From assembly GCA_000814665.1 (NCBI GenBank), contig JWIH01000019.1, positions 156,436 through 220,435 of the forward strand: DNA of 64,000 bases. Reading direction: 5' to 3'. Positions within the stretch are counted from its first letter, which is position 1, and each line of letters begins with the position of its first letter. The DNA comes from Pseudoalteromonas flavipulchra NCIMB 2033 = ATCC BAA-314 (GTDB lineage Bacteria > Pseudomonadota > Gammaproteobacteria > Enterobacterales > Alteromonadaceae). The notes under the pieces were generated by a model. That model searched no databases and was not told where the DNA came from. It saw only the letters and a program-made list of their open reading frames with translations. Shown here in pieces: positions 25,418 to 43,404 of this stretch. The position numbers were made by a program, and so were the translations under genes.

Positions 25418-25441
25418 TAAATATTTACAGCCAAGCTTCGT
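25418..25441 (+). promoter_or_regulatory. PvdS-type ECF sigma promoter of entC
   Basis: TAAAT, a 16-bp spacer, then CGT: an exact match to the iron-starvation (IS) promoter recognised by PvdS in Pseudomonas. A C precedes TAAAT, as is usual for those promoters. It is oriented toward entC, 51 bp upstream of its ATG. The matching element upstream of entE and a PvdS-like sigma gene in the same locus support it. Confidence 0.7.
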
Positions 25442-26814: not shown

Positions 26815-28959
26815 TTAAAACTGGTAAGATACACTTGCTTTAATGTTTCTTCCTGGTTCATAGTCCATTAAGAATAATTCACCAAATACTGGGTGAAAAG
26901 AAACCCCGTTTTTAGAAGATTGTGAAGAATAAAACTCATCAAACAAATTATCTACACCTAGACGAACATGCAAACTAGGTACTGATTCAGGCTGCCAGTG
27001 TGCGCTGATATTATGCACGGTGAAGCCATCTTTACTGTTGTCTAAATCGGCGCCATAGAGATCGGTACCTTGTGCCACATCATCAACAACCATAAAATCC
27101 CAATTCAGCGTCAAGTTATACGCCGTAATTTGGTAAGTAAAGTCAGCTGAAATAGTATCACCCTGCTCTCGCTCTAAACGCGCGCCATCTAACGAGGCAT
27201 ACTGTGTAAATGCATCAAGTTCACTCTCAGAGTTAGAGTAAGTTAACTGAAAAGAAAACGCATCAAGCGCAAAACCAGCATAAGCTTCAAACCCATCTAC
27301 AGTCATATCACCGACGTTGTCTTTCCACGTTTCACGAGGTGCACCGCCAGGTAATGCTGCATTATCAAAAATATAGTCGTCAATTTGCGTTCTGAATATC
27401 GTTGCGCCTAAACGGAGTGTCTTGTTGGTCCCAACTTCACCATCATAGGCAATCGAAAACTCGGTATTAATGCCCGTTTCCGCTTCAATGTCTTGATTGC
27501 GGTTATCACCTAAACCAGCACCAACAAATACCTCACTTATTTCTGGGCCTTTAAATAGCTCAGTCGAACTTAACTTCACCATTAAATTTTCATTAAATTG
27601 ATACTCAGCAGCCAATGATAAAGAAAATTCCGAATAATCATTGTTCACTGTGCCTGAATCTATATCGTAGCTATCGTGCCTAACACCAGGAATAACCGCC
27701 AAACCATTACCAAAATCAATTTTGTCCTGAATGAAAAAGGCTAGATTTTTCGCACTTTCTTCAGAGTGCTTTGAACCACCTGACGCAATAGCTAGATCGT
27801 ACTGAGTATCGTGCTTCACATAATCTGCGCCATAAGTGAAGGTATGCTCTTCTTCAGCAAAAAGCCCAGTTGCCAGTGTTTCACCAAGCAAATTTAGCCC
27901 CGTATTTTCAGCTTCACCCGTCACTTCTCCAGCGTACGCTTGGAACCTAGGAGAAGGAGACATAGACCAACCTGATTCGTCGCGATAAAGTTCACTGGTA
28001 TTGGAATATAAGCTCGCCTTTAATGAAGAGTTTTCGCCCCAGTTAAGATCATAGCTCAGCGTAATTGTGTCTCTTGTAAACTCTGTCGGCCATAACAAAG
28101 GGATCTGCAAGCTATTAGTAATAGCAACATCTGTCGCTAAGCCCATATCAGGGCGATAACTGTAGTCACCTTCATCTTTATAAGTCTCGAAACTCAGTGC
28201 AAGACGTTGGTTGTTATTAATATTCCAACCAAATTTAATTAGCGCATCAGAAACTTCACCTTCAAGACCTTTTACCTCACCATCAGTACCTGCAACGACT
28301 TCATCGTTTTGGTCTAAGATCTTGCCACCACCCACTTCGTAATTATCACGCTCAACATGGTTGTAATATGCAAGAAAGTCGACATCATCGGTCAACAAAC
28401 CAAAACCCGTTACCGAGTAATTATGCCCGGCATTGTCTGCAGCCCCTGCTGAAACACGAGCGGCAAAGCGATCGTCACCAGAAAGCAATTCACGTGCTTC
28501 TTTTGTTTCGAACCGCACTGAACCACCAAGACCGCCGTTAATTACTGAGTTAGTGCCCGTTTCAATATCTACTGACTTTAGAATATCAGCATGAATTTGA
28601 AGGTTACCCATGTGGTGGTACATGTAAGTATTTTGTGCTGCACCATCTATTGAAATTTTAAGATCTTTGTCATCCATACTACGGATAGTGATTCGCTGGT
28701 TCAGCGAGTGTGCACCACCGACATCAATGCCAGGAATAGAGCGCAGTAAATCAGAAATATGGTCTGCTTGTTTATCCGCAATTTCTTGTTCTTTTAAATA
28801 CAGTGCAGAAGTTTTTACCGCAGTTGACCAAACTTCTATTCTTTCTATTTTACCTGCATCACCTGAGTCAGCCAAAGCTGGTGCTGATAGTACCCCCGCG
28901 AGTGCTAAAGCGAGGGTTGAAGGGCGAAAGCCTAACTGCTTAGTGCGAGAAACCAACAT
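26815..28959 (-). CDS. TonB-dependent outer-membrane siderophore receptor
   Basis: A 714-aa ligand-gated porin. It has a signal peptide (STLALALAGVLSAPALADS), then a TonB-box-like KIERIEVWST stretch near residue 37 and the plug domain (ADHISDLLRSIPGIDVGGAHSLNQRITIRSM, GTNSVINGGLGGSVRFETKEA). A 22-strand-type barrel ends in YEPGRNIKASVSYQF with a terminal Phe. By context it should import the ferric catecholate made by this locus (MxcH equivalent). It is divergent from the AraC regulator. The 120-bp gap holds the 12-bp motif shared with the entE promoter and an imperfect palindrome around AATACGAATCACTCGTAAT. The ribosome site AAAGGATACT precedes ATG. Confidence 0.93.
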   Translation of the reverse strand: MLVSRTKQLGFRPSTLALALAGVLSAPALADSGDAGKIERIEVWSTAVKTSALYLKEQEIADKQADHISDLLRSIPGIDVGGAHSLNQRITIRSMDDKDLKISIDGAAQNTYMYHHMGNLQIHADILKSVDIETGTNSVINGGLGGSVRFETKEARELLSGDDRFAARVSAGAADNAGHNYSVTGFGLLTDDVDFLAYYNHVERDNYEVGGGKILDQNDEVVAGTDGEVKGLEGEVSDALIKFGWNINNNQRLALSFETYKDEGDYSYRPDMGLATDVAITNSLQIPLLWPTEFTRDTITLSYDLNWGENSSLKASLYSNTSELYRDESGWSMSPSPRFQAYAGEVTGEAENTGLNLLGETLATGLFAEEEHTFTYGADYVKHDTQYDLAIASGGSKHSEESAKNLAFFIQDKIDFGNGLAVIPGVRHDSYDIDSGTVNNDYSEFSLSLAAEYQFNENLMVKLSSTELFKGPEISEVFVGAGLGDNRNQDIEAETGINTEFSIAYDGEVGTNKTLRLGATIFRTQIDDYIFDNAALPGGAPRETWKDNVGDMTVDGFEAYAGFALDAFSFQLTYSNSESELDAFTQYASLDGARLEREQGDTISADFTYQITAYNLTLNWDFMVVDDVAQGTDLYGADLDNSKDGFTVHNISAHWQPESVPSLHVRLGVDNLFDEFYSSQSSKNGVSFHPVFGELFLMDYEPGRNIKASVSYQF

Positions 28960-29040
28960 AAGTATCCTTTAAATTTTGATGTTAATACGAATCACTCGTA
29001 ATATTGTACACTTTTACTTTTGTTGCATTTTGAATATTAG

Positions 29041-29078
29041 TTATGCAAAATCGTCAATCTATTATGCGTTTTAGAAAA
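29041..29078. promoter_or_regulatory. Candidate AraC-regulator operator (TonB receptor/araC gap)
   Basis: TTATGCAAAATC (29041-29052) followed after 13 bp by GCGTTTTAGAAAA (29066-29078). The same 12-mer, followed by GCGTTTAGAAAA, lies upstream of entE (42561-42590) in the same orientation relative to the minus-strand gene. It is positioned to control the receptor and to autoregulate the AraC gene. Confidence 0.55.
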
Positions 29079-29080
29079 TT

Positions 29081-30067
29081 GTGGCACTTACTATGGAAGG
29101 GAATATTTCCAACGCTGAGCTCAACAACAAGTTGTTATTGGCGAGTGGATTAAACTGCCGTATCAACGGCTTTGATATTGAGCAACTTATTGCGATTGGT
29201 CGACTCTCTTTTTTGCCATTGAGCGATGATCTTCAACTTCATACCTGTCAATGTATCGAGCAGCAGCAAACTAGCAGCTGTGCAGAATTGCAACCAAGTG
29301 TGAACATTACCGTATTGCTTAAAGGTGTTGTGGAATTTAGAGTTGCGAATAAATATTACCGTTTCAGCGCTGAAAACGCACCTCAGGCATTTGTCAACCT
29401 CATCACTCAGCCCGAGCCTTTCACTCGCTATCTGCAAAAACACCAAGAAGTAGAAAAGGTCACACTGAGCGTCAGTCCTCGATGGCTCGTTGCGAGACTG
29501 TCGCAGCAATATCAATCTCTATTTACCACCACGAAAGTGATTGAGTTACCGCTACAAACAAAAGCAATTTCGCTGTCACAACAACTGCTTCAAACCCCAA
29601 AACAACCAAGCTTAGCTGAACGTTTGGAGTGTGAAGGTGTTGTGATGCAATGGTTGAGCTGCTTTCTTCCTCACTTGATAGACAGTAGTAACCAGAGCCA
29701 CGTGATGTATAAACAGCCCTTTCACTCAGATATTGAGGTCAAAAAAAATAAGATCATCGATTTATTGTCGGAAGGAAAAAGTGTTGAGCAGGTCGCATTA
29801 GAGCTTGCTATGAGCTTAAGCAGCTTACAGCGTTTCTTTAAACGCAGCTTTAACACAACACCAAAACAGTACGTTAAACAAAGCAAGCTCAATAAGGCAC
29901 GACATGCGTTGTTAGTTGAAGGCTTGTCGATTGGAGAAGCTGCATACTTGGCACATTATGACCATGTTGCCAACTTTATTGCTGCATTCAAAAAGCAATT
30001 CGGTGTCACTCCGATGCAGTTTGTAAAAGCGCATCGCAGCGACACTCTGGGAGCAACTTCAGGTTAA
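29081..30067 (+). CDS. AraC-family transcriptional regulator (PchR-like, siderophore locus)
   Basis: A 328-aa regulator. A variable N-terminal half (residues ~1-215) is followed by a C-terminal AraC double helix-turn-helix (residues ~225-320). That region contains IIDLLSEGKSVEQVALELAMSLSSLQRFFKRSFNTTPKQYVKQSKLNKARHAL (first HTH) and GLSIGEAAYLAHYDHVANFIAAFKKQFGVTPMQF (second HTH), broken here only by residue positions. The start is uncertain: GTG 29081 or ATG 29093, neither with a clear ribosome site. Divergence from the TonB receptor is the usual PchR/YbtA arrangement, in which the regulator senses the intracellular ferric siderophore. It probably activates the receptor and biosynthesis operon through the shared motif. 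Confidence 0.88.
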   Translation: MALTMEGNISNAELNNKLLLASGLNCRINGFDIEQLIAIGRLSFLPLSDDLQLHTCQCIEQQQTSSCAELQPSVNITVLLKGVVEFRVANKYYRFSAENAPQAFVNLITQPEPFTRYLQKHQEVEKVTLSVSPRWLVARLSQQYQSLFTTTKVIELPLQTKAISLSQQLLQTPKQPSLAERLECEGVVMQWLSCFLPHLIDSSNQSHVMYKQPFHSDIEVKKNKIIDLLSEGKSVEQVALELAMSLSSLQRFFKRSFNTTPKQYVKQSKLNKARHALLVEGLSIGEAAYLAHYDHVANFIAAFKKQFGVTPMQFVKAHRSDTLGATSG

Positions 30068-30098
30068 AGTAACTAGTCGAGTTGCTTTAACCATGTTT
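30062..30098. terminator. Convergent terminator overlapping two stop codons
   Basis: Stem GGTTAAAG-T-AACT / AGTT-G-CTTTAACC with an AGTCG loop (30062-30092), then ATGTTTTTT. It contains the stop codons of the AraC gene (TAA at 30065) and of the MFS gene (complement of 30073-30075), a very compact convergent end. Confidence 0.75.
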
Positions 30099-31248
30099 TT
30101 TGATTTAATAGATAAATCCCTGCCACCAAGACTGCAACTGAAGCGATAGTCATTGCTAGATAAATAAAGAATAACTGAAACCCTAGACTGGCTATCATCG
30201 GTTCAAACAACACAGGGCTAATAAATTGCCCGGTAAAGTAACAGGTTGTCATAATCCCCATCGCTTTTCCTCGCATCGGTGGCGGAACAAATTCGAATAG
30301 CCAAACTACAAGGTTTGGTCGAATAAGGCCAAGACCCGCGCCGATTACAAAGCTAGCGCAAACAATGCTACTAAAAGTATTTACAAAACCAAGTAACGAA
30401 AATCCAGTTGCAACAATAAGCCAGCCAACTAAATGTGCTTGCTTAATATTCAAGTACTGTCTAACACGACCATAACCCATAGAGACGCATGACATCGCGA
30501 ATAAAAAGCCCGCTATTACTAAGCCTATAGTGCTGGCTGATGCTTGCTGAGCAGACAAATAAAAAGGCAAATGAATCGTTAATCCATACAGTACAATAAT
30601 TTCTACCAGTGCTAGTGTACAGCACAGCAAAAAGGTTCGGTTCATCCAACTACTTGGTAGTGATTGAGTTTGTGGTGGCAGGCTAACTGGCGGCACCTTT
30701 ACCCAAAGCCATACCCCTGGTAGTACCAAAAGTGCGAGTGAGTAAATAGCAAAAACCCAAGTCCAATGCTGCTCTGCTAAAAAGCCTGCAAGCGCCAAGA
30801 ATAGTACGCCACCAAAGCCACCAAAGGCAGCTTGCAATCCCATAAACTGAGAAAACTTGGGCCCTTCGAAGTATCGTCCTGCGATCGTTGTGCCACTCAC
30901 CATAATAAAGGCAACAGCGACTCCCATCATCGCTCGACTACCAAGGATCAGCCACAACGAATCCTGCCAGTAATAGCCTAGTCCACCACTAAGTACGAAC
31001 AATATTAGTGCGTTCACTAGTAATTTTTGACTATTCCATTTGTCGACTAAACTCCCTGCAATTGGCGCACAAAGTGCTATTACGAGACCAGGTAATGCTA
31101 AGGTCATTTTGGTCCAAAATGCGGCATGTTCAATACCTGAGAAAGCCACTGTCATCGCTGGTAATGCTGGCGCTAGAGTCGCACTAGCAAGCACCGTCAT
31201 GGTACTTGCTAACAGCAAAAACCAAGTCGCTAATCGCGTTTGATTCAT
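30073..31248 (-). CDS. MFS transporter, probable siderophore exporter
   Basis: A 391-aa, 12-helix major-facilitator protein of the DHA1 drug/proton antiporter type. It has an N-terminal helix LATWFLLLASTMTVLASATLA, then the motif-A-like loop GSLVDKWNSQKLLV after helix 2 and GSRAMMGVAVAFIMVSGTTIAGRYF around helices 4-5. The last gene of the entE-to-MFS operon, it overlaps mxcM by 4 bp (ATGA). Context suggests export of the apo-siderophore (EntS-like role), although uptake of a siderophore is also possible for MFS proteins in such clusters. Confidence 0.85.
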   Translation of the reverse strand: MNQTRLATWFLLLASTMTVLASATLAPALPAMTVAFSGIEHAAFWTKMTLALPGLVIALCAPIAGSLVDKWNSQKLLVNALILFVLSGGLGYYWQDSLWLILGSRAMMGVAVAFIMVSGTTIAGRYFEGPKFSQFMGLQAAFGGFGGVLFLALAGFLAEQHWTWVFAIYSLALLVLPGVWLWVKVPPVSLPPQTQSLPSSWMNRTFLLCCTLALVEIIVLYGLTIHLPFYLSAQQASASTIGLVIAGFLFAMSCVSMGYGRVRQYLNIKQAHLVGWLIVATGFSLLGFVNTFSSIVCASFVIGAGLGLIRPNLVVWLFEFVPPPMRGKAMGIMTTCYFTGQFISPVLFEPMIASLGFQLFFIYLAMTIASVAVLVAGIYLLNQKTWLKQLD

Positions 31249-32777
31249 GCTGGACCTCCAATACGCTTGCGAGCGCTCGCCACCGCTTTAAGATAATCCT
31301 CAAAAAGCTCATGCTCATCAAACCGAGTGCTACGCCCTGCTTTCACCACTAAATCACCAGCCACCATTACCGAATCTACATCAAGACTTGACCCTGTAAC
31401 AATAAAAGTTCTCAGTGGATGACCAGAAAGCTTGTATCGATAGTCATCATTGTTCACTAACACTAAATCTGCCTGCTTACCCACTTCAATCGAGCCAATT
31501 TGTTGCTCCCACCCCAACGCTTTTGCTGCATATAAAGACGCTGTTTTTAAGGCTAAGGTAGGTGGGCAGGCGGTATTACAATTTTGTGCTTCGTTGTGCC
31601 CAAGGTGTGCCCCCCGCATGGCTTCACACATACCACCAATAAACGAGATATCGCCATCGGTACTGCTAGAAACCCATACACCATCTTTTAAAAAACGCCC
31701 TATCTGCCCAGTTTCACTGATTGTTGCCTCACCAAGCATGCCGTAGTGCGCTGGTGAATGGCAGATATTAACACCCGTTTCAATAAGGCGTTGATACTCA
31801 TCCTCGCTTGCATAAGCTGTGTGCACAGCTAATAGCTTGTCAGTAAGTAATCCCATGGCATCAAAGCGCGCGATAGGCGAGCGACCAAATACGCGTTCAA
31901 CTTCAGCACGTTCATTTTTTAGCGGCGCTAGGTGTGTGGCATAGGGTACTTGGTATTGCTGGGCGATACTAGCCAGTGCTTCTAGCTGTTTGTCAGAACT
32001 ACCAAAAGCCCCCATCACGGAAGGCATCGCCCCCACAAGCCCTGAGCTATGATTATCCCAAGTTTCGATAAGTGATAGCCAATCCGCTGTTTGTAGCTCG
32101 GTATCAGCGATGATAGTGGGTGTCGACTTATGCGCTTCCAGCATTATATCCGATCCCCAACGACTCACCCTTAACCGCATACCTAAATCAATCGCAGCAA
32201 GCGCCATTGCGTCAGCTTTATTTGCCGAACCAACATCCCCCAGCGCAGTTGTACCCGAACGCAGTTGCGTCCACATACTCCAACGGGCGATGGCTAGACC
32301 TTCCTCTAGCGTCAACTTATCTCCCACAGTGGAGATAAAGCCAAACATGGAACCTAGTGCTTGAATATTGCCACCATTTGAATACGCAGTGGCCTCTAAG
32401 TGGGTGTCATCAGGTGACTCAGCATTTGGCGCGACAAAACTTTCATGCCAATGAGGATTTATAAGCCCTGGCAGCATTAACTTACCTTGACCATCAATCC
32501 GTTGATCGAAGTTACTAGGTTGTTCTCCATCCTCACCCAGCGCTTCAATATGTTTGCCGTGAACAAGTAACCAACCTTTTGGGTAAACAGTATCTCTTGT
32601 GTCTGCAGTGTAGATAAAAACATTATCAATTAGCGTGCGCAGTGCATTGTTCTGCGGCTTGTTACAAACCGCTTTTAAGTTTTCAAGTTCACCAACCTGA
32701 GCACTACCAAATGCAGCACTTCCTGAAGCGCCAGCAAGTGCTGCAAAGCGCTGTGTCGACAAGCAAGAACAAACCAT
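31245..32777 (-). CDS. mxcM: Amidohydrolase-superfamily imidazoline-forming enzyme, MxcM-like
   Basis: A 510-aa TRZ/ATZ-type amidohydrolase. Metal-site motifs: HxH in LPGLINPHWHESF near residue 115, YATHLAPL, AVHTAYASEDEY, CHSPAHYG and SSTDGDIS. A C-terminal beta-sandwich returns in IEVGKQADLVLVNND. The first ~45 residues are an extension that is Ala/Gly/Ser-rich with three Cys. In the pseudochelin pathway an amidohydrolase of this type (MxcM) does not hydrolyse but condenses the aminoethyl-amide of myxochelin B into a 4,5-dihydroimidazole. The position directly after the MxcL-type aminotransferase (1-bp overlap, TAATG) in a catechol NRPS operon points to that role. Function is assigned from context and family, not from residues alone. 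Confidence 0.82.
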   Translation of the reverse strand: MVCSCLSTQRFAALAGASGSAAFGSAQVGELENLKAVCNKPQNNALRTLIDNVFIYTADTRDTVYPKGWLLVHGKHIEALGEDGEQPSNFDQRIDGQGKLMLPGLINPHWHESFVAPNAESPDDTHLEATAYSNGGNIQALGSMFGFISTVGDKLTLEEGLAIARWSMWTQLRSGTTALGDVGSANKADAMALAAIDLGMRLRVSRWGSDIMLEAHKSTPTIIADTELQTADWLSLIETWDNHSSGLVGAMPSVMGAFGSSDKQLEALASIAQQYQVPYATHLAPLKNERAEVERVFGRSPIARFDAMGLLTDKLLAVHTAYASEDEYQRLIETGVNICHSPAHYGMLGEATISETGQIGRFLKDGVWVSSSTDGDISFIGGMCEAMRGAHLGHNEAQNCNTACPPTLALKTASLYAAKALGWEQQIGSIEVGKQADLVLVNNDDYRYKLSGHPLRTFIVTGSSLDVDSVMVAGDLVVKAGRSTRFDEHELFEDYLKAVASARKRIGGPA

Positions 32778-34030
32778 TAGCTGGCATCCTGAGGATCAAA
32801 AAGGCCTGCTTCTTTCATCGCTATTAGTGATGCCTTAACTGCGGCTATTGTTTCGTTGATATGCGCTTCAGTATGTGCGCCACAAATAAAATTCACTTCA
32901 CGGCGCATAAGCACACCACGTTTTGCCATTTCAGCTAGAAAAGGTACTGCAAACTTTACGTGCTCTTGCGGATCTTTGGCAAATAAGAACATCGGAATAG
33001 GGTCATAACCAACTACTTTGAGTGGCACACCTAACTGCAGTGAAACCTGATTAACCTCTGCTTTTAAAATTGCGCCAAGTCTTGCTATATGCTGAGTGAA
33101 TTCAGTGCGTTGATATTCCTTTAATACAGCATCACACACTGCTAGCGAGAGCATTTCGCCACCAAAAGTAGTCGATACTTGCAGCTCATTGATCCGCGAC
33201 ATCAACTCACGCTTGCCTGCCACAGCAGATAAAGGCATCCCCGCCGCAATACCCTTAGACAAGGTCACTAAATCAGCCTGAATACCGAAGTATTCTTGCG
33301 CACCGCCGGGTGCTAATCTAAAGCCAGTTACCACTTCATCAAACACCAAGATCACACCGTGTTCACTGCAAGTATTTCGTAACTGTTCTAGGAATGGTCT
33401 TTCTAAGACGCGATTATATGGAACCGATAGCAACACCACCGCAAGTTCATCTTTTCTTGCAATGATCTTTTCAATGATTTTTGGTTCATCTGCAGGAGTA
33501 AATAATGGCATGCGATGAGTTAACCCAGCAATAACAGCCGGTACCCCGGGTGTGTCAAACATGTACTGATCATGCCAACCGTTATAACCTACCGTCATAA
33601 TTTCATCTCGACCTGTCACGTGACGGGCGAGTCTTACCGCTGCAGAGTTAGCATCTGCACCCGTTTTAAAAAAGCGAACTTGTTCGGCATTTGGGATCAC
33701 TTCAATTAAGGTTTTCGCCGTCTGCACTTCGATAGGTGTAGGCAACGAATGAATAATGCCGTTGTGCAAGTGCTCTGTAATTGTATTGACAACAACAGGG
33801 TGATTGTGACCTAAAGTATTGGCCGCTAAACCACAAATAAAGTCGATATATTGATTACCATCAACATCGGTGACAATGGCTCCCTCTCCCTTGCTCAGAT
33901 AAACCGGGAAAGCCCCTGGTGCAAATTGCTCTGGCTTTTTCATCATTGATTGAGTAAAACCCGCGATCACTTGTTCACCTTCGGTTTGAAGTTGCTGAGA
34001 TTGTGTCAAAGAAAGTGTTTGATTATTCAT
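32777..34030 (-). CDS. mxcL: Class III aminotransferase, MxcL-like (glutamate-1-semialdehyde aminomutase fold)
   Basis: A 417-aa PLP enzyme. It contains YLSKGEGAIVTDVDGNQYIDFICGLAANTLGHNHP (substrate-entry region), FFKTGADANSAAVRLARHVTGRDEI (PLP-phosphate loop), GYNGWHDQYM, LVFDEVVTGFRLAPGG with the PLP-pairing Asp, and the Schiff-base Lys in LVTLSKGIAAGMPLSAVAG. In myxochelin biosynthesis the homologous MxcL aminates the aldehyde released by the reductase domain of MxcG to give myxochelin B. The same enzyme set is present here, so the substrate is inferred to be that aldehyde. It sits 14 bp downstream of entA in the operon. Confidence 0.88.
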   Translation of the reverse strand: MNNQTLSLTQSQQLQTEGEQVIAGFTQSMMKKPEQFAPGAFPVYLSKGEGAIVTDVDGNQYIDFICGLAANTLGHNHPVVVNTITEHLHNGIIHSLPTPIEVQTAKTLIEVIPNAEQVRFFKTGADANSAAVRLARHVTGRDEIMTVGYNGWHDQYMFDTPGVPAVIAGLTHRMPLFTPADEPKIIEKIIARKDELAVVLLSVPYNRVLERPFLEQLRNTCSEHGVILVFDEVVTGFRLAPGGAQEYFGIQADLVTLSKGIAAGMPLSAVAGKRELMSRINELQVSTTFGGEMLSLAVCDAVLKEYQRTEFTQHIARLGAILKAEVNQVSLQLGVPLKVVGYDPIPMFLFAKDPQEHVKFAVPFLAEMAKRGVLMRREVNFICGAHTEAHINETIAAVKASLIAMKEAGLFDPQDAS

Positions 34031-34044
34031 ATATTCCTCGAAAA

Positions 34045-34818
34045 TTAATGTCCTAGTGTCGCCCCACCATCAACCAACAGATTAGCCATGGTGATGTGTC
34101 GAGCTTGGTCACTGAGTAAAAACAAAATACTGTTTGCGATATCCGTCGCTGAGGCGATACGACCTAGTGGAATACCTAATTTGAATTGCGTTAAATCGCC
34201 TTGAATGGTTTGCTCAGCACCATTTTCATCGCGCCATAGCTGCTGCTGCATTTGAGTGTCGGTAGACCCCGGCGCAACTAGGTTACACCGAATGTTAAAC
34301 GGTGCGACTTCTAGGGCTAGCGTTTTAATCATCGCACTCAAGGCCGCCTTTGAAGCGCAATAACTGCCCATATTCACTCTAGGTGTGCTAGCTGCATTAC
34401 TGCTCACAGCAACGATGGCACCACGCTTTCTTATCCGCATCTTATTCGCCACCGCCTGACATAAATAAAATGGCCCATGGCAATTTACGGCAAACGTATC
34501 AAGCCACTGGGCATCGCTTTGTTCTAGCAGCGTTCCCATGTGCAAAATACCAGCGACACTGGCAACATACTCTATTGCACCGAGCTGGATTTCAATTTCC
34601 TCAACTACGGTTTGCACAAGGTTTTTGTTCGTAACATCAAGATGGATTTGGAAGTGATTAGCCGTTACTTCTTGGAGTTGACTCGCGGCAGTAGCAATAT
34701 CTGCCGCAACTACAATCGCTCCGCGTGCTAATAGTTGCTCGACCAGTGCTTTACCTATGCCCTGATAAGCTCCCGTCACCAACGCGATACGCCCTGTAAA
34801 TTCACATTCATTGGACAT
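34045..34818 (-). CDS. entA: 2,3-dihydro-2,3-dihydroxybenzoate dehydrogenase (EntA/DhbA/MxcC)
   Basis: A 257-aa short-chain dehydrogenase giving 2,3-dihydroxybenzoate, with NAD as coenzyme. The Rossmann motif TGAYQGIGKAL lies near residue 16 and ADIATAASQL at the coenzyme-discriminating strand. VASVAGILHMG, VAVSSNAASTPRVNMGSYCASKAAL (catalytic Ser, Tyr and Lys in S-Y-x3-K) and NLVAPGSTDTQM follow, as in EntA. It is immediately adjacent to the siderophore-interacting-protein gene (0-bp gap) within the eight-gene operon. Confidence 0.93.
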   Translation of the reverse strand: MSNECEFTGRIALVTGAYQGIGKALVEQLLARGAIVVAADIATAASQLQEVTANHFQIHLDVTNKNLVQTVVEEIEIQLGAIEYVASVAGILHMGTLLEQSDAQWLDTFAVNCHGPFYLCQAVANKMRIRKRGAIVAVSSNAASTPRVNMGSYCASKAALSAMIKTLALEVAPFNIRCNLVAPGSTDTQMQQQLWRDENGAEQTIQGDLTQFKLGIPLGRIASATDIANSILFLLSDQARHITMANLLVDGGATLGH

Positions 34819-35640
34819 CTAGTACACCTCATCCATGATTTCATGTCGGCGTTCATGATAGGTTTCTTCATCCTGACCGCGACGCCAATATGGAATGGCA
34901 TACAGTTGTTTTTTTGATAACCCAAAATCTTGAATAAGCCGCTTACGACACGCCAGTACTGCACCATTTTCGCCAGCAATAAAAGCACTGATAGAAGTCA
35001 CACCTGAGGGTATTGCAACATTTGCAATTGCTCTTGCAAGTTGTTCACAGTCACCACTTTGACGCAGCAACCAATGAATATTGACACCTGATGGTGCAGT
35101 AATAGTATGCTTATCATCTAATGAATCTATTTCAATAAAGACTTCAGCTCGTCGCTCTGCCTCAAACCCCTCGAGCAGCGCGCTAATCGCCGGAACAGCT
35201 GTAAGGTCGCCTGCAAGCACGTGCCAATCCGCATCCGCTAGCAATGGATCTGGCCCACCGGGCCCTGCAACCCCAAGTTCAGCGCCAACGTCGGCATTGA
35301 CCGCCCAGCCAGATGCTGGACTGTGGGAACCGTGCACTACAAAATCAATATCCAATTCATTGCTGTCTGGTCGATAAGCTCGCACCGTGTAAGCCCTTGT
35401 CACCGGGCGATCCGTCGGCCAAACAATTTTACCGCTATCATCACGTGTTGGGAGTGATAATGTGCCGGTTGTTCTATTTGCGAAGAATAGCTTGATATGC
35501 GCACCATCATAACCGCTTGGGAAGCCATGTAACGCTTCCCCAGAAACGGTGATCCTCAACAAGTGTGGCGTGATATAGCGCTTAGCTACACAAAATACAC
35601 GGCGAGGACCGCTAGGTGGAACTGGTTGTCGCTGCTTCAT
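34819..35640 (-). CDS. Siderophore-interacting protein (NAD(P)H ferric-siderophore reductase, ViuB/MxcB type)
   Basis: A 273-aa FAD-binding protein that releases iron from the imported catecholate by reduction. The FAD_binding_9 domain (residues ~15-135) shows HLLRITVSGEALHGFPSGYDGAHIKLFF and the RxYT-type flavin motif in VTRAYTVRAYRPDSNELDIDFVVHG, then GVAGPGGPDPLLADADWHVLAGDLTAVPA. The SIP C-terminal domain ends FGLSKKQLYAIPYWRRGQDEETYHERRHE, the typical YWRRG ending. Its start overlaps the mxcG stop (ATGA, 4 bp). Confidence 0.92.
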   Translation of the reverse strand: MKQRQPVPPSGPRRVFCVAKRYITPHLLRITVSGEALHGFPSGYDGAHIKLFFANRTTGTLSLPTRDDSGKIVWPTDRPVTRAYTVRAYRPDSNELDIDFVVHGSHSPASGWAVNADVGAELGVAGPGGPDPLLADADWHVLAGDLTAVPAISALLEGFEAERRAEVFIEIDSLDDKHTITAPSGVNIHWLLRQSGDCEQLARAIANVAIPSGVTSISAFIAGENGAVLACRKRLIQDFGLSKKQLYAIPYWRRGQDEETYHERRHEIMDEVY

Positions 35641-38600
35641 GACAACTCCTCTTTCGATTCAGAAAATTTAGCCTGTAATGTCTGCAGTCGTTTATACGCT
35701 TCAGGATGGTGTTCAATTTTTAGCAAGTTGCTGGTAAAGGCATAAATGAGGTAGCGCGCTAAGTCGGCCTTTACAAAAGACTGCAAACTCGCATCGTGTT
35801 GGAGACTTGCTGAGATAAAACTCTGATTGCTCGCAACCAATGTCGTCGCTTTTTGTGATTGCTGCGGCTGACTTGTAAAGAAACTTGCAATCGCTAGGTC
35901 TTCTTCATCTTGTGACTGTTCAAGAACAGCCAACCAGCTCAACAAAGATTCCACTTTGAAAACAAAACCAAAATCGATAAGCCATTGATACAATTCCGGT
36001 AACGACACTAAAGTTTGCGGTGTCACGTTAAAGACAGCCGCAGTAGTAGGCGTTAAAGTTTGTGCGCTGACAAATTTGGCAACTCTATCTACAGGCGTCC
36101 ACGGTTCAGACACAGCAAGCTCAGGCAAACGATGAAACTTAAGTCCAGAGCGCAAGATGCGCCATACCAAGTCATTGTGGTTAATATAGCCACTTTGTTT
36201 GGCCCCCGTAACTCGTGCTAAGCGATATACTTGTGCTGCTACCCCCTGCTGGATCGCAATTTCAACCATCGCTTCCGCAACCCATTTTGATTGCTGATAA
36301 CCATCGTGAAGGCCACTATGATAAGGAATAAACGCCTCATCAAGAGGCTCTCCGGACTGTGGTGCAACCGCAATAGTCGAGACGTGATTAAATGGCAAAC
36401 TAAAATATTTCGCGAACATCAATAATTCCGCTGTCGCATCTGTATTTGCCACTTTTAAGCTACTGTAATCACGTAACACAGAGGTATGCGCTGCATTGTG
36501 TAATATTCGAGTCACGCGCATGCCCAGCTGTTGATAGTCAGCGTCACTCAACCCAAGTTGTGACGCGGCAATATCTCCAAGTAACAGCGTTACCCGAGAA
36601 CTATCTATTTCACCAAGGTTTTGCACGTCGAAGGCTTGCTGTAACCGTTCGAACCCATGCTCTATGTTATTAGCTCTTACACTACAAATTACACTTAGAT
36701 CCGGCTTCGCAAGTAAATGCGCCAGTAACTGCGCACCAACAAATCCCGTTGCACCGGTCAGCAACACCGTTTCCTCACTAGTTTCAGTTAGTGTATGCGG
36801 TTGAACCTGCAACAGCTTATCTCTAAATTGAGCAAGGTCTGCTTTTATCGTTGTCGCGATATCCGTGTTCGTCTTGTGTGCTAATTCATCACCAAGCTGA
36901 AGTGCATTACACAAGTCGACGAGTTTAGGATGCGCAAATAAAAATGCGACATTCACCGTTTTATTAAGTAGTTGTGTTAGCCGCCCTGCAACTTGAATAC
37001 ATTGGAGTGACTGCCCCCCAATGCTGAAAAAGTTATCAGCTAACCGGACATTACTCACGCCCAGAACTTCCCGCCAAACGGCAGCTATCTGTGTTTCAAA
37101 GTCACTCATAACCTCAGCGTCACAGGCGGTATTTTGCTGCTCAGATAATCGCTTGCGATCGATTTTATTGGCCGGTGTTTTAGGTAAAGCTTCATATTGA
37201 TAAAGCTGTGCAGGTAACATTGGAGCAGGTAACTGCTCACTCAGCACTGTGCGTAAATCATTTAACGCCCATGCGGTGGTACTCACTATATGCGCCGCCA
37301 AAGCAGTTGCACTACCTTGCGCATTCTTAACCACAGTCACCGCGGCTTCAAGAATGGCAGGAACACTCAATAGCACAGCTTCAATCTCACCAATTTCAAT
37401 CCGGTAGCCACTGATTTTTAACTGGGCATCGACGCGGCCAAGATATTCAAGTTGCCCACTTTTATGCATCCGCACAATGTCTCCGGTACGGTAAGCCGCT
37501 ATGCTCCGCATAGCTTGCGGATCCCAAAATGAAACAAACGCAGCAGCAGTTTGCTCGGTCAGACCCAAATAACCGCTCGATAAACCCACGCCCGTAAGCC
37601 AGAGCTCTCCGCGCTCGCCAAATTTTGCTATCTGGCCTTTTTCACGCATTACCACAGCACCGCGTCCGGGTAAGGGCAAACCAATTAAGCTTGGATTTGT
37701 TGCTTTACTGAGATCAATGGCAGTCGCAACGACTGTAGCTTCCGTTGGGCCGTAAGTGTTAAGTAAACGTACAGACTGTTTAAACTGCTCACGCCACGCT
37801 TCTACACGCTGACGATTAACCGCCTCTCCACCTATAATGATGGTATGAATTGACACAGGAAGCATACGGCGAGTCGCGCACAGGTGTCGACAAAGCTCAT
37901 GCCAGTAAGCGGTAGGTAAATCGAGTATAGTAATATGTTGGTTTTCTAGTTCGGCAAGAAAATCCTCAAAAGACTCCAACATGGCGTCATTACGCAGTAT
38001 CAACGTCGCACCGGCCGTCAAAGTAACAAAGACTTCTTCAATACAGGTATCAAAATGAAAGGGCGCAAACTGTAATACTCTATCTTGAGTGCCTACTTGG
38101 TAGGCCAGACGTGCGCCACTAACAAAACCTGCCAATGCGTCGTGGCTTATCTGCACCCCTTTAGGCTTACCCGTGGAACCTGAGGTATAGATTAAATAGG
38201 CTTGTTCTAGTAAAGGAAGTATTGATGGGGTGGCAGCCAACGCTTCAAGCTGGGCATTTGCAAGTTCGCTTGCAATATTAAGCTGTGTAACGCCAGCATC
38301 GCGGATCTCAGCTAACCCTTCACTACTATCATCCACCAATGCTAGGCATGGCTTAGCATCAGCGATAATACTACGATTACGCGCAGAAGGAGCATCGCTA
38401 TCAATAAAGACGAAGCGGTGCTGCGCAGCAAATACGGCCCACATTGCAATCACTGTATATTGGCTACGAGGCAGTGCGAGTAATACGGTACCATCAGCGA
38501 CGGAAGCATTGACTCTAAGGCGGTTTGCTAACCATAGCACTTTCTGTACTAACCGCTCATAGCTAATAGCATGTCCATCTATCACCTGAACCGCTATTGA

Positions 38601-39968
38601 TTTAGGCGACTTCCTTGATAACTCCAACAAACAACTAAGTACGTCACTCTGCTCCACAGGCGCCGGAGTCTCGCTTATCGCAAAGTCCCGATTGGTAACG
38701 CGTAATGGCATTTGCAAGTCCACAGCAACAGTATGGAGAAACTGCAACGTTTCACTTTGTATACTCAACAACTCAGCTTTACTATAGCCACTTTGGTTAC
38801 CTTCAATCTCGAAACGAATACTGCCGTCCATTTGCTTGATAAAAATAAATGCAATGTCCTCAACAGGCCCAGCAGACACAGTATGACTTGTCACCGCTTC
38901 ACCTTGGCAGGTTTCATGACGTTCAAAAGGTAAAATATTAACAACTGCACCAAACAATCTTGTTGGCAATTGCAAGATCGCAGCTTCAGCTTTTAAATCT
39001 TCATAACGATATCGAAAATGCCTTCTAGCTTGACGCAATTGCTCACTGACCTGACGGATTAAACCTTCAAAATTATCAACAAGCACAAAGTCCACTGGAA
39101 CCGGTACAATATTCATATGCATGCAGGGCGTATTCGCGGCTTTTGATGCCATACGATTGGCAACAGGCATGCCCATGATCGTTTTCGCCACCCCAGTGCG
39201 TTGATAAACAATAGCGCTAACCGCGGTTAGTAATAGTTCAGACCAGTTGGCGTCGACCGAATTGGCTCGAGCCTCTAATTGATTGAGCACGGTTGCTGAT
39301 AATTGCGTCGTAACCTTTTCCTTGTCCGCCTCTGTATTTAACACTTGTGTTGTCAGGGCTGCGGCATTATCCAGACCTTGCAGCTGCTGTTGCCAATACA
39401 GCCTATCCTGCTGATACCACTTGCTTTGACGGTACTGACTATCTTCAGTGATGACAGCTTGATATTGAGTTTCATCAGCCGTAACTTGAGCCCCCTCATA
39501 GGCCTGAATCACTCGATTAGAAACCAGCGCAAAACTAAAGCCATCCATCGCAATATGATGCGCACCAAGTGCCCAATAGTAGTGGTTAGTGGCAAGTCGG
39601 ATTAACACATGACGATATAAGTCGCCATTGGCTAAGTCATAAGGCTGAGTTTGCCACTTTATCAAAAGCTGCTGTGCTGCAAACGCTGCATCATCGCTTT
39701 CTGACAAGTCGATATAGTCGCCCAACTTTGCCACTCGCTCAGCTTCACTGAGTAATTGAGTTGTCGGCACGCCTTGATGTTCTATAAAGCGTACATTGAT
39801 TGCCGTTGTACTTTGTAGCACTCTTGAAGCAGTTAACAGCCAATCTTCAGCATTTATTGGCACGTTTAACTCAACATACTCAGCAGTGTTATAGCGCGTA
39901 CTAGTAGGCTGTTTTGCCTGCCCAAGCCAAATCCCAAGTTGCGCAGCGGTTAAAGGCCAATTACTCAT
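35637..39968 (-). CDS. mxcG: Non-ribosomal peptide synthetase MxcG-like: C-A-T-reductase
   Basis: A 1443-aa single-module NRPS. Condensation domain (~1-430) with [12 protein letters not shown]. Adenylation domain (~450-960) with [31 protein letters not shown] and the A10 Lys in [11 protein letters not shown]. By-eye alignment of the specificity pocket gives D-T-E-D-I-G-T-V-V-(K); its two extra acidic residues fit a basic substrate such as lysine. The carrier domain has [13 protein letters not shown] (phosphopantetheine Ser). The terminal thioester-reductase domain (~1090-1400) has [12 protein letters not shown] and [11 protein letters not shown]. This architecture equals MxcG of myxochelin assembly, which joins two dihydroxybenzoyl groups to lysine and releases the product as aldehyde or alcohol. 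It overlaps both neighbours by 4 bp. Confidence 0.93.
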
Positions 39969-40849
39969 GCAGGTTCCATCGCCAGCGGTGCTTTGCCCAC
40001 TAGAATTTCATACCACTCATTAAGTGTGGTGCTTTCTGCAAGTTCAGCTAGCGTAATATCGATGCCTTGCGCCCGCCACTGATCAATCAATGTCATTACG
40101 CGAATGGAATCTAATCCGAGATAGAGTAAATTTTCTTCGGGATCAACCTCTTCAACATCAATGCAAAGCAATGCTGCAATCGCCTCCTGCATCGAGCCCA
40201 AAGATAACTTCTGTTGTGTATTTTGTGGTGTGCACGCAGCGATAACCTCGTCCAACAACTGCACCTGCCCACAACGAGACGAAACATACTCCATCGCATG
40301 GAGATGTTCTGCTTCACTAAAATCTGCGACAGCATCCGCAACAACGAATGCTTTTATGTCATACATAAAGGCGTCTAATGCCGTAGATAAGATACCGATA
40401 TGGGCATAAATCCCACAGATAATAAGCTGGTCTCGACCTTGTGCCTGCATATCCTCAAGTAGGGTACTACGTTTAAATGCGCTGTAACGCCACTTGGTAT
40501 AAACCTTATCATCGGCAGTTGGAGCAAGTGCAGGTAAAATGCTTGTGTCTTGCTCAGTCAGGCCAGTTCCCCAAAAATCGGTTAGCAGCGCTCTATCTTT
40601 CGGATCTTGATTTGCAGGCTGTGCAGTATACACAACTGGGACACCAGCAGCTTTGGCTGCCACGATTAAACTATTAATTTGTTGGATCAAAGACCGCATC
40701 GGTGCTTGCGTTGTATCATAGAAATTCACAAAATAAGATTGCATATCGTGAACCAATAGCACCGCTTTACTCGGGTTAATTTGCCACTCAGTGCGATTTT
40801 CTGGGCGGCTTGATGGTAATGGATATGAAGAAATACGTGGGATTGCCAT
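39965..40849 (-). CDS. entB: Isochorismatase / aryl carrier protein (EntB/DhbB/MxcF)
   Basis: A 294-aa bifunctional protein. The N-terminal isochorismatase domain (residues ~1-210) shows [19 protein letters not shown] (catalytic Asp), [39 protein letters not shown] (catalytic Lys) and [17 protein letters not shown]. The C-terminal aryl-carrier domain has [21 protein letters not shown], with the phosphopantetheine Ser in LDSIR. It splits isochorismate to the dihydrodiol and carries the activated dihydroxybenzoate to MxcG. It starts 20 bp after the entE stop and overlaps mxcG by 4 bp. Confidence 0.95.
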
Positions 40850-40868
40850 GAGTTTATCCTATTGAGTA

Positions 40869-42521
40869 TTATGCAGTTTGTGATGAGGTAAGTAGATTAG
40901 CGATATGCTCACGCAACGCGCGTTTATCGATCTTTCCAACTTTCGTTTTTGGTAGTGACGCAATAAATTCAAAGCGGTCAGGATACTTGTAATCAGCGAG
41001 CCCACGACCTCGAACAAAGCGATTGAGCATTGCCCTTGTGAGTGGTTGGCCAAGATCTTCTCGCGGCACGACAAATGCGCATATACGCTCACCCAGCAGA
41101 GGATCTGGCATTGCAACAACTGCACAATCATGAACCGCAGGATGTGCCAATACTTGGTTCTCGACTTCTTCTGCTGCGACCTTTTCGCCACCTTTATTGA
41201 TTTGATCCTTATCGCGGCCCTCAACAATTATGTCGCCCGATGCAGTTTGTTTAACCACATCACCACTACAGTAAAAACCATCTTCAGTAAATGCAGCTAA
41301 GTTATGAAGTTCAGCGTTTAAATAACCACGAAATGTATAAGGTCCTTTAGTCGTTAATAACCCAGCCTCTCCTTGAGGTACTGGTTGATTATTCTCGTCG
41401 ACGATACGGATTTCGTCAGCTGCACTCATTGGTCGACCTTGTGTATGATGTCGCGTCCATTCGTCATCATCGAGACGGGTATAGTTGACAAGCCCTTCCG
41501 CCATGCCAAATACCTGCTGCAACGTCACAACAAGCTCTTTTTCCATTCTGGCAGCGAGGGTGGCACTGAGCTTAGCTCCACCGACTTGGAGCACAGTCAA
41601 CGAGCTTAGGTCATAGTGTTGTCGCTCTCGAGAATCGAGCCACAACGAAACCGCAGGGGGAACCAAAGCAGCCCAATTTGGTTTATGGGCCTCGATCAGC
41701 CTAAAACAGCTGCTTGGTGAGGGATCTGGAGCACAGATCACTGTACCACCAGCGTAAAACACTCCCAATGCGCCGGGTGAACTAAGCGGAAAATTGTGTG
41801 CGGCAGGTAGAGCGCAAAGGTATCGCGTTTGTTTATTCCATTGACACACTTCGACACTTTGGCGAACACTATAGTAATAATCATTGTGGGTACGAGGGAT
41901 CAACTTAGGTGTACCTGTGCTTCCCCCCGACAATTGAAAGAATGCCACATTGTCCGCTTGATGCTTACGAAAAGGCAGAGAATCAAAATGCTCAAAGCAT
42001 GCAGAAGCATGCAGCTTTTCACCAAGCTCTTTCGCCCAAGTACTTTGACCACGCAGCAGCACATACTGTAGCTGCGGTGTACACGCTTTTAACTGTTCAA
42101 AGAATTGACTATCACCAAACAGAGAATGCTTTGTGTCCGCAATAATCAACTTTGGCTGCAGAGCAGCTGCGTAATGTGTTAACTCGACTTGGTTATGATT
42201 CATCAAAGCATTAACAGGTAACACCGCCAGCTTTTGTAAAGCAAAAAATACCACATAGAATTCGTAACAATTAGGCAATTGCACAATCGCGGTGTCACCG
42301 GCACAAAGTCCTTGCGCAGCCAAATAACTCGCCAGTCTCGTCGCCTCTTTTTCCAAGCATGCATAGGACTTCTCGATATCGTTATCGATAACGGCAATTT
42401 GAGTCGGATTTTCTTGTACTTGACGCTCTAAGATCTGACTTAACTCTTCATCTATCCAATATCCAAGATTGCGATATCGCTCTGCATCCTCAACAGGCCA
42501 ACTAACACAACTTTTTAACAT
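40869..42521 (-). CDS. entE: 2,3-dihydroxybenzoate-AMP ligase (EntE/DhbE/MxcE)
   Basis: A 550-aa stand-alone adenylating enzyme and first gene of the eight-gene operon entE-entB-mxcG-SIP-entA-mxcL-mxcM-MFS. Motifs: FFQLSGGSTGTPKLIPRTHNDYYYS (P-loop), CALPAAHNFPLSSPGALGVFYAGG (the aryl-acid family HNF motif), QVFGMAEGLVNYTRLDD, YCSGDVVKQT, GRDKDQINKGGEKVAAEEVE and the A10 Lys in PKTKVGKIDKR. It activates dihydroxybenzoate and loads it on the EntB carrier domain. Upstream lie a PvdS-type promoter, a Fur box and the shared AraC motif. Confidence 0.96.
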   Translation of the reverse strand: MLKSCVSWPVEDAERYRNLGYWIDEELSQILERQVQENPTQIAVIDNDIEKSYACLEKEATRLASYLAAQGLCAGDTAIVQLPNCYEFYVVFFALQKLAVLPVNALMNHNQVELTHYAAALQPKLIIADTKHSLFGDSQFFEQLKACTPQLQYVLLRGQSTWAKELGEKLHASACFEHFDSLPFRKHQADNVAFFQLSGGSTGTPKLIPRTHNDYYYSVRQSVEVCQWNKQTRYLCALPAAHNFPLSSPGALGVFYAGGTVICAPDPSPSSCFRLIEAHKPNWAALVPPAVSLWLDSRERQHYDLSSLTVLQVGGAKLSATLAARMEKELVVTLQQVFGMAEGLVNYTRLDDDEWTRHHTQGRPMSAADEIRIVDENNQPVPQGEAGLLTTKGPYTFRGYLNAELHNLAAFTEDGFYCSGDVVKQTASGDIIVEGRDKDQINKGGEKVAAEEVENQVLAHPAVHDCAVVAMPDPLLGERICAFVVPREDLGQPLTRAMLNRFVRGRGLADYKYPDRFEFIASLPKTKVGKIDKRALREHIANLLTSSQTA

Positions 42522-42590: not shown

Positions 42591-42673
42591 AATAATGAAA
42601 TTAAAAATACTATTTAATTATCAAGATATTAAAACCAAACACCGAGAGCCAATTTGCCACTAGCCCCCTAATG

Positions 42674-42697
42674 ACGATTGCCCCTAAGATTAATTTA
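42674..42697 (-). promoter_or_regulatory. PvdS-type ECF sigma promoter of the entE operon
   Basis: On the minus strand, TAAAT, exactly 16 bp, then CGT, preceded by C as at entC. This equals the Pseudomonas iron-starvation promoter consensus. It is oriented toward entE, 153 bp from its ATG, and lies just downstream of the Fur-like box at 42705-42719. Confidence 0.7.
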
Positions 42698-42704
42698 GAA
42701 AAAT

Positions 42705-42719
42705 TTAAAATAATTCTCA
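42705..42719 (-). promoter_or_regulatory. Fur box, entE side
   Basis: Minus-strand TGAGAATTATTTTAA matches the 7-1-7 Fur motif TGATAATGATTATCA at about 11 of 15 positions. It sits directly upstream of the PvdS-type entE promoter in the 349-bp gap between entE and the sigma-factor gene. Confidence 0.55.
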
Positions 42720-42798
42720 TAACTGTTCATATTTTTACCTGCGCACCTTTTGATGACACAAACGTTACAAATAAGTAAATTAAAATTCGATTTAGCTA

Positions 42799-42828
42799 TT
42801 GACAAAAACCCGATAAAAAACTTAGGAT
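42799..42828 (+). promoter_or_regulatory. Sigma-70 promoter of the PvdS-like sigma gene
   Basis: TTGACA (perfect -35, 42799-42804), an 18-bp spacer and TAGGAT (42823-42828). The Fur box at 42834-42848 covers the predicted start, so iron-loaded Fur would block it. Confidence 0.6.
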
Positions 42829-42833
42829 CTAAT

Positions 42834-42848
42834 TGAGAATTATTTTCA
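42834..42848 (+). promoter_or_regulatory. Fur box of the PvdS-like sigma gene
   Basis: TGAGAATTATTTTCA matches the 7-1-7 Fur consensus TGATAATGATTATCA at 12 of 15 positions and is nearly palindromic. It lies at the predicted transcription start, 23 bp before the ATG. Confidence 0.8.
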
Positions 42849-42870
42849 TTATTAATCGTAGAGGGATAAA

Positions 42871-43404
42871 ATGGCAGCAGTGTTGCGCTCAGATAATACG
42901 GTAGATGTTCGTCGTTGGGCCGATATAATTGAAGTACAAAGGGAGAAATTGACTGCATATTTAACCTCAATTCTTCACTGCCAATACCTCGCAGAAGACG
43001 CTTTACAGGAAACGTATATTCGTCTGTCAAAAATGCCTGATGAACAAGAGCAAGCCATTAGCAATCATGTGGCTTACTGCTATCAAACAGCAAGAAATAT
43101 CGCAATTGATATGGTAAGGAAAAAATCAAAGGAAAGCTGGGTTAGCTTAGACAGCGCACTGCCAGGACAATACACTGATAAGCAAGTCAGTGCTGAAGAA
43201 ACCTTAATTGAGCAAAATCTAGATGGTCGTATGATGCAAGCGGTAAGCTCTCTATCAAAACGCCACCAGAACATTCTAAGCCTGTATAAACGTGGTGATT
43301 ACAAGCAGAAGGATATTGCCAAAATATGTGCAATTTCACCGACGTTAGTGAATTTTATAATTCAAGAAGTGATTATTACGTGTCAAACCGTATTAGCACA
43401 CTAA
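42871..43404 (+). CDS. PvdS-like ECF iron-starvation sigma factor
   Basis: A 177-aa ECF sigma factor of the FecI/PvdS group. Region 2 (residues ~25-95) has YLAEDALQETYIRLSKM and CYQTARNIAIDMVRKKSKE. Region 4 (~125-175) has LSKRHQNILSLYKRGDYKQKDIAKICAISPTLVNFII. The QKDIAK...SPTLVNF recognition helix closely resembles that of Pseudomonas PvdS as I recall it, which predicts recognition of the same TAAAT -35 element. No FecR/FpvR anti-sigma gene is adjacent. It is divergent from entE behind a Fur box and sigma-70 promoter, so it should appear in iron limitation and drive entC and the entE operon through the two IS-type promoters. The 3' end overlaps terB by 4 bp. Confidence 0.9.
   Translation: MAAVLRSDNTVDVRRWADIIEVQREKLTAYLTSILHCQYLAEDALQETYIRLSKMPDEQEQAISNHVAYCYQTARNIAIDMVRKKSKESWVSLDSALPGQYTDKQVSAEETLIEQNLDGRMMQAVSSLSKRHQNILSLYKRGDYKQKDIAKICAISPTLVNFIIQEVIITCQTVLAH

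Follow-up and report, generated by a model that had tools for sequence, protein, structure and literature searches.

An apparently Fur-gated iron-starvation sigma factor with matching promoters very probably switches on catechol iron-scavenging genes in Pseudoalteromonas

We analysed a 64-kb window (G000:C11:156436-220435) of a 5.45-Mb Pseudoalteromonas genome. The window contains a dihydroxybenzoate (DHB)-NRPS cluster composed of entC, a TonB-dependent receptor gene, an AraC-type regulator gene, and eight minus-strand genes. Profile matches identified entC, for isochorismate synthase (25492..26712, plus strand), and the receptor gene (26815..28959, minus strand), and the AraC-type gene (29081..30067, plus strand) matched Pfam HTH_18 and HTH_AraC. 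The eight remaining genes form a predicted operon (30073..42521, minus strand) that runs from the entE start at 42521 to an MFS exporter gene at 30073, in the order entE, entB, NRPS-reductase, siderophore-interacting protein, entA, aminotransferase, amidohydrolase, and MFS exporter. These genes are tightly packed, either overlapping or separated by gaps of no more than about 20 bases. Since an NRPS with a reductase domain, an aminotransferase, and an amidohydrolase fit the biosynthesis of myxochelin and pseudochelin, the product of the cluster is putatively a pseudochelin/myxochelin-type compound. Pseudochelin A is described as a myxochelin derivative from Pseudoalteromonas piscicida in which an amidohydrolase forms an extra ring (PMC10296737). 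In the nearest relative (G045), entE was matched in pieces that lie in different frames (L032 16541-18188), which could reflect a broken gene or a sequencing error.

Divergent from entE lies a gene for an ECF sigma factor of 177 aa (42871..43404, plus strand), identified by Pfam and by alignment. The protein contains sigma regions 2 and 4 only, which is the ECF architecture, with Sigma70_r2 above its Pfam cut-off (37 bits) and Sigma70_r4_2 just below (24.2 bits against 25.7). Its best NCBIfam match was NF005448, at 84 bits and well below the cut-off of 190 for that family. A sigma-70-type promoter, TTGACA-N18-TAGGAT (42799..42828, plus strand; hexamers at 42799-42804 and 42823-42828), precedes the gene, and both halves are invariant in eight genomes. 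A Fur-like box follows the -10 of this promoter (42835..42853, plus strand) and agrees with the consensus at 14 of 19 positions, a score that was matched in 4 of 200 shuffles. The preliminary description had reported both the promoter and a Fur box, and both are present, but the overlap that it described with the promoter hexamers is not: the box starts 6 bases past the -10 and spans the likely start site instead. Across the genus, 29 of 37 sigma orthologs have a Fur-like match of at least 14/19 within 200 bases upstream, and the other 8 fall below that score. With this candidate box, a sequence match at its own promoter, the sigma gene is apparently under Fur control.

Both DHB transcription units are preceded by an exact copy of TAAAT-N16-CGT(C), located at 25418..25441 (plus strand) before entC and at 42674..42697 (minus strand) before the entE operon. 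As had been described, each copy is preceded by a C and faces its gene. The pattern is identical to the published box of the Pseudomonas sigma factor PvdS, TAAAT-N16-CGT, as given in PMC2235872, so the same promoter type occurs here at siderophore genes. An earlier argument had treated such 8-base matches in the upstream DNA as improbable by chance, but number alone does not set them apart. With a spacer of 16 or 17 bases, the pattern has 4 matches within the window compared with 5.15 expected, and genome-wide it has 214 + 238 matches compared with 351 + 359 for a reversed control. Because these counts are below the expectation and the control, they are unremarkable and are no evidence in themselves. 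The evidence for the boxes is their position and conservation.

The longer form, TAAAT-N16-CGTC, has 42 sites in the genome, all of which we checked by a mechanical ORF test (at least 60 codons). Five lie between ORFs, including the sites before entC and entE. One of the others is 212 bases before an ORF of more than 400 codons (L076), another has an oppositely oriented next ORF (L079), and the third runs into the beginning of the following ORF (L088). A borderline sixth site, coding only through a 63-codon ORF, is 20 bases before the next ORF (L129). We give these four sites no weight as further targets. A separate feature of the entE leader is a terminator-like hairpin just after the box (42644-42668, minus strand), with 10 pairs and a T-rich tail; one was found compared with 0.2 in shuffles, and it is perhaps an attenuator.

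Conservation sets the boxes apart from the surrounding DNA. In eight genomes, the sigma gene and entE are transcribed divergently, and an alignment of the gaps between them with short coding edges, in which two pairs are near-identical, had 487 columns, of which 339 were ungapped and 73 invariant. Outside the gene edges, the only invariant runs of at least three bases were the sigma promoter (TTAGATCCTA and TGTCAA, its -10 and -35 reversed) and both box halves (TAAATT and CGTC), which is thus kept in 8/8 gaps. Invariant runs at the gene edges were CCA (sigma coding edge), CAT (sigma start), and the entE start. The box before entC was kept in 7/7 pseudochelin-type loci with entC found, window included; at the eighth (L035), there was no entC match within the 20 kb examined. 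Spacing is also strict. Between the ORFs (at least 100 aa) of the eight pseudochelin-type loci, which amounts to 9.8 kb of intergenic DNA out of 161 kb, TAAAT-Nk-CGTC occurred 19 times at k=16 and never at the 14 other values of k between 10 and 24. In 22 other loci, there were 14 occurrences at k=16 compared with 6 over all other k. Both sets include related sequences, and these counts are therefore not independent.

Sigma factor and box also occur together across the genus. We searched 108 genomes and found sigma orthologs at E <= 1e-17 in 44; looser matches raise the total to 72. Matches to entE at E <= 1e-120 were present in 42 genomes, 38 of them close (E <= 4.9e-169, with the match in G045 split). 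All 38 close-entE genomes, which are related and hence not independent, contained both a sigma ortholog (E <= 1.1e-42) and TAAAT-N16-CGTC, either upstream of entE (8 genomes) or upstream of entC-entE (30 genomes). By locus, these were L140-L169 (30/30), L170-L175 (6/6), L133 of G044, and L032 of G045. The letters of the spacer vary between lineages, while its length is constant. Relatives that keep the sigma gene without the motifs had been named as a point to check, and none occurred among these 38 genomes.

Outside the 38 were G014, G070, G006, and G018. The first two serve as a sigma-less control, limited to two genomes with a more distant entE (47-49%): both have a DHB cluster, no sigma ortholog, and no box upstream of entC (2/2), and the one TAAAT-N16-CGTC in G070 lies inside the entA coding sequence. 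In G006, the entE-like match was 42%, the best sigma match had an E of 3.3e-5, and there was no box in the 10 kb examined. G018 does have the sigma gene, together with an entE-like match (39% identical) within a 1,021-codon frame; this frame is preceded, at a distance of about 410 bases, by a TAAAT-N16-CGT that lacks the final C. Six of the 44 sigma-bearing genomes are without a close entE (G018, G035, G046, G060, G075, and G103).

This distribution bears on which sigma factor would read the boxes. The source genome has at least six other ECF-like matches to NF005448, and a FecI-type paralog among them could be the reader, with the neighboring sigma factor a bystander. However, it is the ortholog of the window sigma factor that the box at DHB operons accompanies in 38/38 genomes. 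G014 and G070, without a box before entC, have only weak FecI-like matches (E 5.8e-9 and 3.5e-9), and the paralog that we aligned (L185) differs in the recognition region. We therefore regard reading by a paralog as extremely improbable, and favor the sigma factor encoded beside entE.

DHB genes are usually regarded as directly Fur-regulated. Under that usual arrangement, entC and entE would have ordinary sigma-70 promoters under direct Fur control, with the TAAAT-N16-CGT matches being incidental; many partial Fur matches are also to be expected from AT-rich DNA. A second Fur-like box had in fact been proposed upstream of the entE promoter, but it scores 12/19, and 115 of 300 Markov shuffles did as well or better. 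No Fur match rose above shuffles before entE in any of the eight gaps (24 to 247 of 300 shuffles reached the score) or before entC in seven loci (52 to 230 of 300). There was no sigma-70 candidate before entC, and the only one on the entE strand (42877-42848) is inside the sigma gene's own promoter region. Incidental matches would also leave the conserved box and spacing unaccounted for. Taken together, these results make direct Fur control of the two units very unlikely, compared with initiation by the neighboring sigma factor at the boxes.

The preliminary description tied this sigma system to myxochelin/pseudochelin loci, where its elements are indeed present, but it is not peculiar to them: elsewhere in the genus it is predicted to serve TonB receptors and DHB-NRPS clusters of a second kind as well. 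The box preceded one TonB-receptor family (receptor match E <= 1e-150) in 13/13 genomes, all of which also had a sigma ortholog. In the 13th (L197, box at 793), the upstream flank is shortened, with the distance to the gene unchanged. In five genomes, the box preceded an MbtH-size ORF, confirmed as MbtH by Pfam in one, and no MbtH gene was seen among the window proteins scanned. Relatives of the Burkholderia sigma factors OrbS and MbaS are often encoded beside MbtH genes according to PMC8908255, and the present sigma factor has a comparable MbtH/NRPS neighborhood, through MbtH-size ORFs in relatives and through the NRPS operon in the window.

Other potential targets were less clear. The AraC-type gene is preceded by a decayed box, TGAAT-N16-CGTC (29031..29055, plus strand). 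Of six genomes aligned, four keep CTAAAT intact at this position; the source genome and G045 have TGAAT. Since the whole gap between the receptor and AraC-type genes (28960-29080) is conserved throughout in the six genomes, with a mean column identity of 79%, this box is weak evidence. The gap also contains TTAATACGAATCACTCGCAAT, a possible operator for Fur or AraC. At 17 non-pseudochelin sigma loci, the 1.5 kb preceding the sigma gene had an exact box in 2, a box with one mismatch in 3, and no box in 12; in most of the genomes concerned, the box is present at an entC-entE locus elsewhere. We considered a large regulon and rejected it. The mean count of CTAAAT-N16-CGTC was about 10 in the 11 ortholog-bearing genomes examined and about 9 in the 5 that lack the ortholog, which is no clear difference, and because genome-wide counts are not raised, the regulon appears to be local and looks small.

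Several features of this system resemble iron-starvation sigma factors described elsewhere. PvdS is likewise an ECF sigma factor encoded at a siderophore locus, with a Fur box at its gene and the TAAAT-N16-CGT promoter (PMC2235872). It differs in being held by the anti-sigma factor FpvR and in serving pyoverdine, whereas here no dedicated anti-sigma factor was seen and the putative targets are DHB catecholate genes. OrbS and MbaS (ornibactin and malleobactin) are similar in being Fur-controlled and having no adjacent anti-sigma gene, and the OrbS regulon is confined to the siderophore cluster, as PMC8908255 presents them; their targets are hydroxamate-type rather than catecholate. AsbI of Aeromonas salmonicida (acinetobactin) is also encoded in a siderophore cluster by a gene with a Fur box and no adjacent anti-sigma gene, but it is reported to be needed for the genes that encode the FstB receptor and the AsuF-J exporter (PMC10253897), whereas the targets proposed here are promoters of DHB biosynthesis. 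AcsS of Pseudomonas syringae B728a is an ECF sigma factor in the achromobactin cluster that regulates its biosynthesis (PMC3329529), although achromobactin is a citrate siderophore. Judged by these features, the sigma factor in the window is a PvdS/OrbS-type iron-starvation ECF sigma factor (old ECF09, now ECF243), here predicted to be wired to catecholate pathways. The regulatory logic is already known, while the wiring and the taxon are apparently new; we found no description in the open-licence literature of such a sigma factor, either in Pseudoalteromonas or at loci for myxochelin or pseudochelin.

The absence of an adjacent anti-sigma gene, noted at the outset, was borne out: the neighbors of the sigma gene are entE and a TerB-family gene. 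This is the arrangement given for ECF09 in PMC8908255, and no FecR gene stands beside the sigma gene at this locus, as it would in FecI/FecR cell-surface signaling. A distant membrane anti-sigma factor, FecR- or FpvR-like, could additionally hold the sigma factor until a ferric-siderophore signal arrives, as for PvdS. Such separation has a precedent in Pseudomonas fluorescens SBW25, where fpvR and fpvI are not neighbors (PMC2235872), and the source genome has two FecR genes. However, each of these is paired with its own sigma gene on another contig (C17 and C21, with the window sigma gene on C11), and the clusters of OrbS and MbaS also have no adjacent anti-sigma gene, with no evidence for one reported in PMC8908255. 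We consider a distant anti-sigma factor improbable, and favor control by Fur with no dedicated anti-sigma factor required.

We conclude that a Fur-gated iron-starvation sigma cascade is highly likely to control entC and the entE operon, and that matching promoters of this sigma factor very probably switch on the catechol iron-scavenging genes. As long as iron is present, Fur would block the sigma gene's sigma-70 promoter. Once iron is exhausted, the sigma factor would be made, bind core RNA polymerase, and initiate at the TAAAT-N16-CGT(C) promoters. Since boxes precede both units, entC and the entE operon would be induced together, and with them DHB supply, catecholate siderophore assembly, and export. 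The genomes show the sequence elements, that these are conserved, and that they occur together; from this we infer Fur binding, contact between sigma factor and promoter, and iron-dependent transcription. A single sigma lineage would then serve both kinds of DHB-NRPS cluster, along with TonB receptors, across Pseudoalteromonas. This would extend PvdS/OrbS-type iron-starvation control to DHB catecholate biosynthesis and to a genus of which a large part has sigma orthologs. It also predicts which genes are co-induced for making pseudochelin-type compounds, and offers CTAAAT-N16-CGTC as a sharp promoter signature for spotting siderophore genes in the genus.

The C-terminus of the sigma factor differs from that of OrbS, in which four C-terminal cysteines sense Fe(II) (PMC9023288). 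The window sigma factor has one cysteine (C171) after the helix-turn-helix, plus a terminal histidine (codon 43399-43401), instead of a four-cysteine cluster. In an alignment of 37 of the 44 genus orthologs, Cys37 in region 2 is kept in 37/37 and the Cys171 position in 36/37. The tail after Cys171 varies in length, and 35/37 orthologs end in a histidine directly before the stop. We considered whether a convergent stop-codon overlap causes this histidine and rejected it as a general cause, because both codons are used (CAC 21, CAT 14) and the downstream sequence varies. The terminal histidine is possibly a metal ligand or a C-terminal degron. A more far-reaching reading, which we consider unlikely, is that the protein is an iron sensor of a new layout, in which Cys37, Cys171, and the C-terminal histidine bind Fe(II) and block binding to core polymerase without an anti-sigma factor. 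If such an on-board sensor were real, it would form a two-tier iron switch together with Fur, as one swappable module carried with catecholate clusters.

The recognition region contains SPTLVNF in 37/37 aligned genus sequences, similar to the recognition helix of PvdS, which we take to be of the SPTLVNF type. The same residues occur in two sigma factors from other genera, one of Methylosinus, encoded next to hydroxylase and PvdF genes, and one of Azospirillum, encoded next to TonB receptors; an Azotobacter relative beside an MbtH-NRPS locus has SPTTVHY instead. On plasmid pOB3b3 of Methylosinus trichosporium OB3b (L183), divergent CTAAAC-N16-CGTC sites at 12483 (minus strand) and 12685 (plus strand) point toward a hydroxylase gene and a PvdF-type gene, and a related sigma factor is encoded nearby.

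Within the genus, the sigma factor appears to have a history distinct from that of its chromosomal surroundings. Proteins of the downstream flank (g43 and g43b) share 94.6-100% identity with their counterparts in G018, G075, G044, G083, G071, and G072, and on the opposite side g4 is 97-98% identical in G075 and G018. The sigma factors of genomes sharing near-identical flanks with the source genome are only about 50% identical. In a tree of the genus sigma factors, two other relatives, and plasmid-borne relatives, which carries long-branch warnings for its outer rows, the pseudochelin-type sigma factors of eight genomes form one clade with 100/100 support. Near-identical flanks, low sigma identity, and a single clade together suggest that the sigma variant goes with the cluster. 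The pseudochelin-type variant thus appears to travel with its cluster, providing an example of a sigma factor inherited with the cluster that it appears to serve. In G018, G075, and G046 (L056, L049, and L057), a sigma gene of the other kind occupies this slot in the chromosome, where no siderophore cluster adjoins it, and may be a relic or a regulator of other targets.
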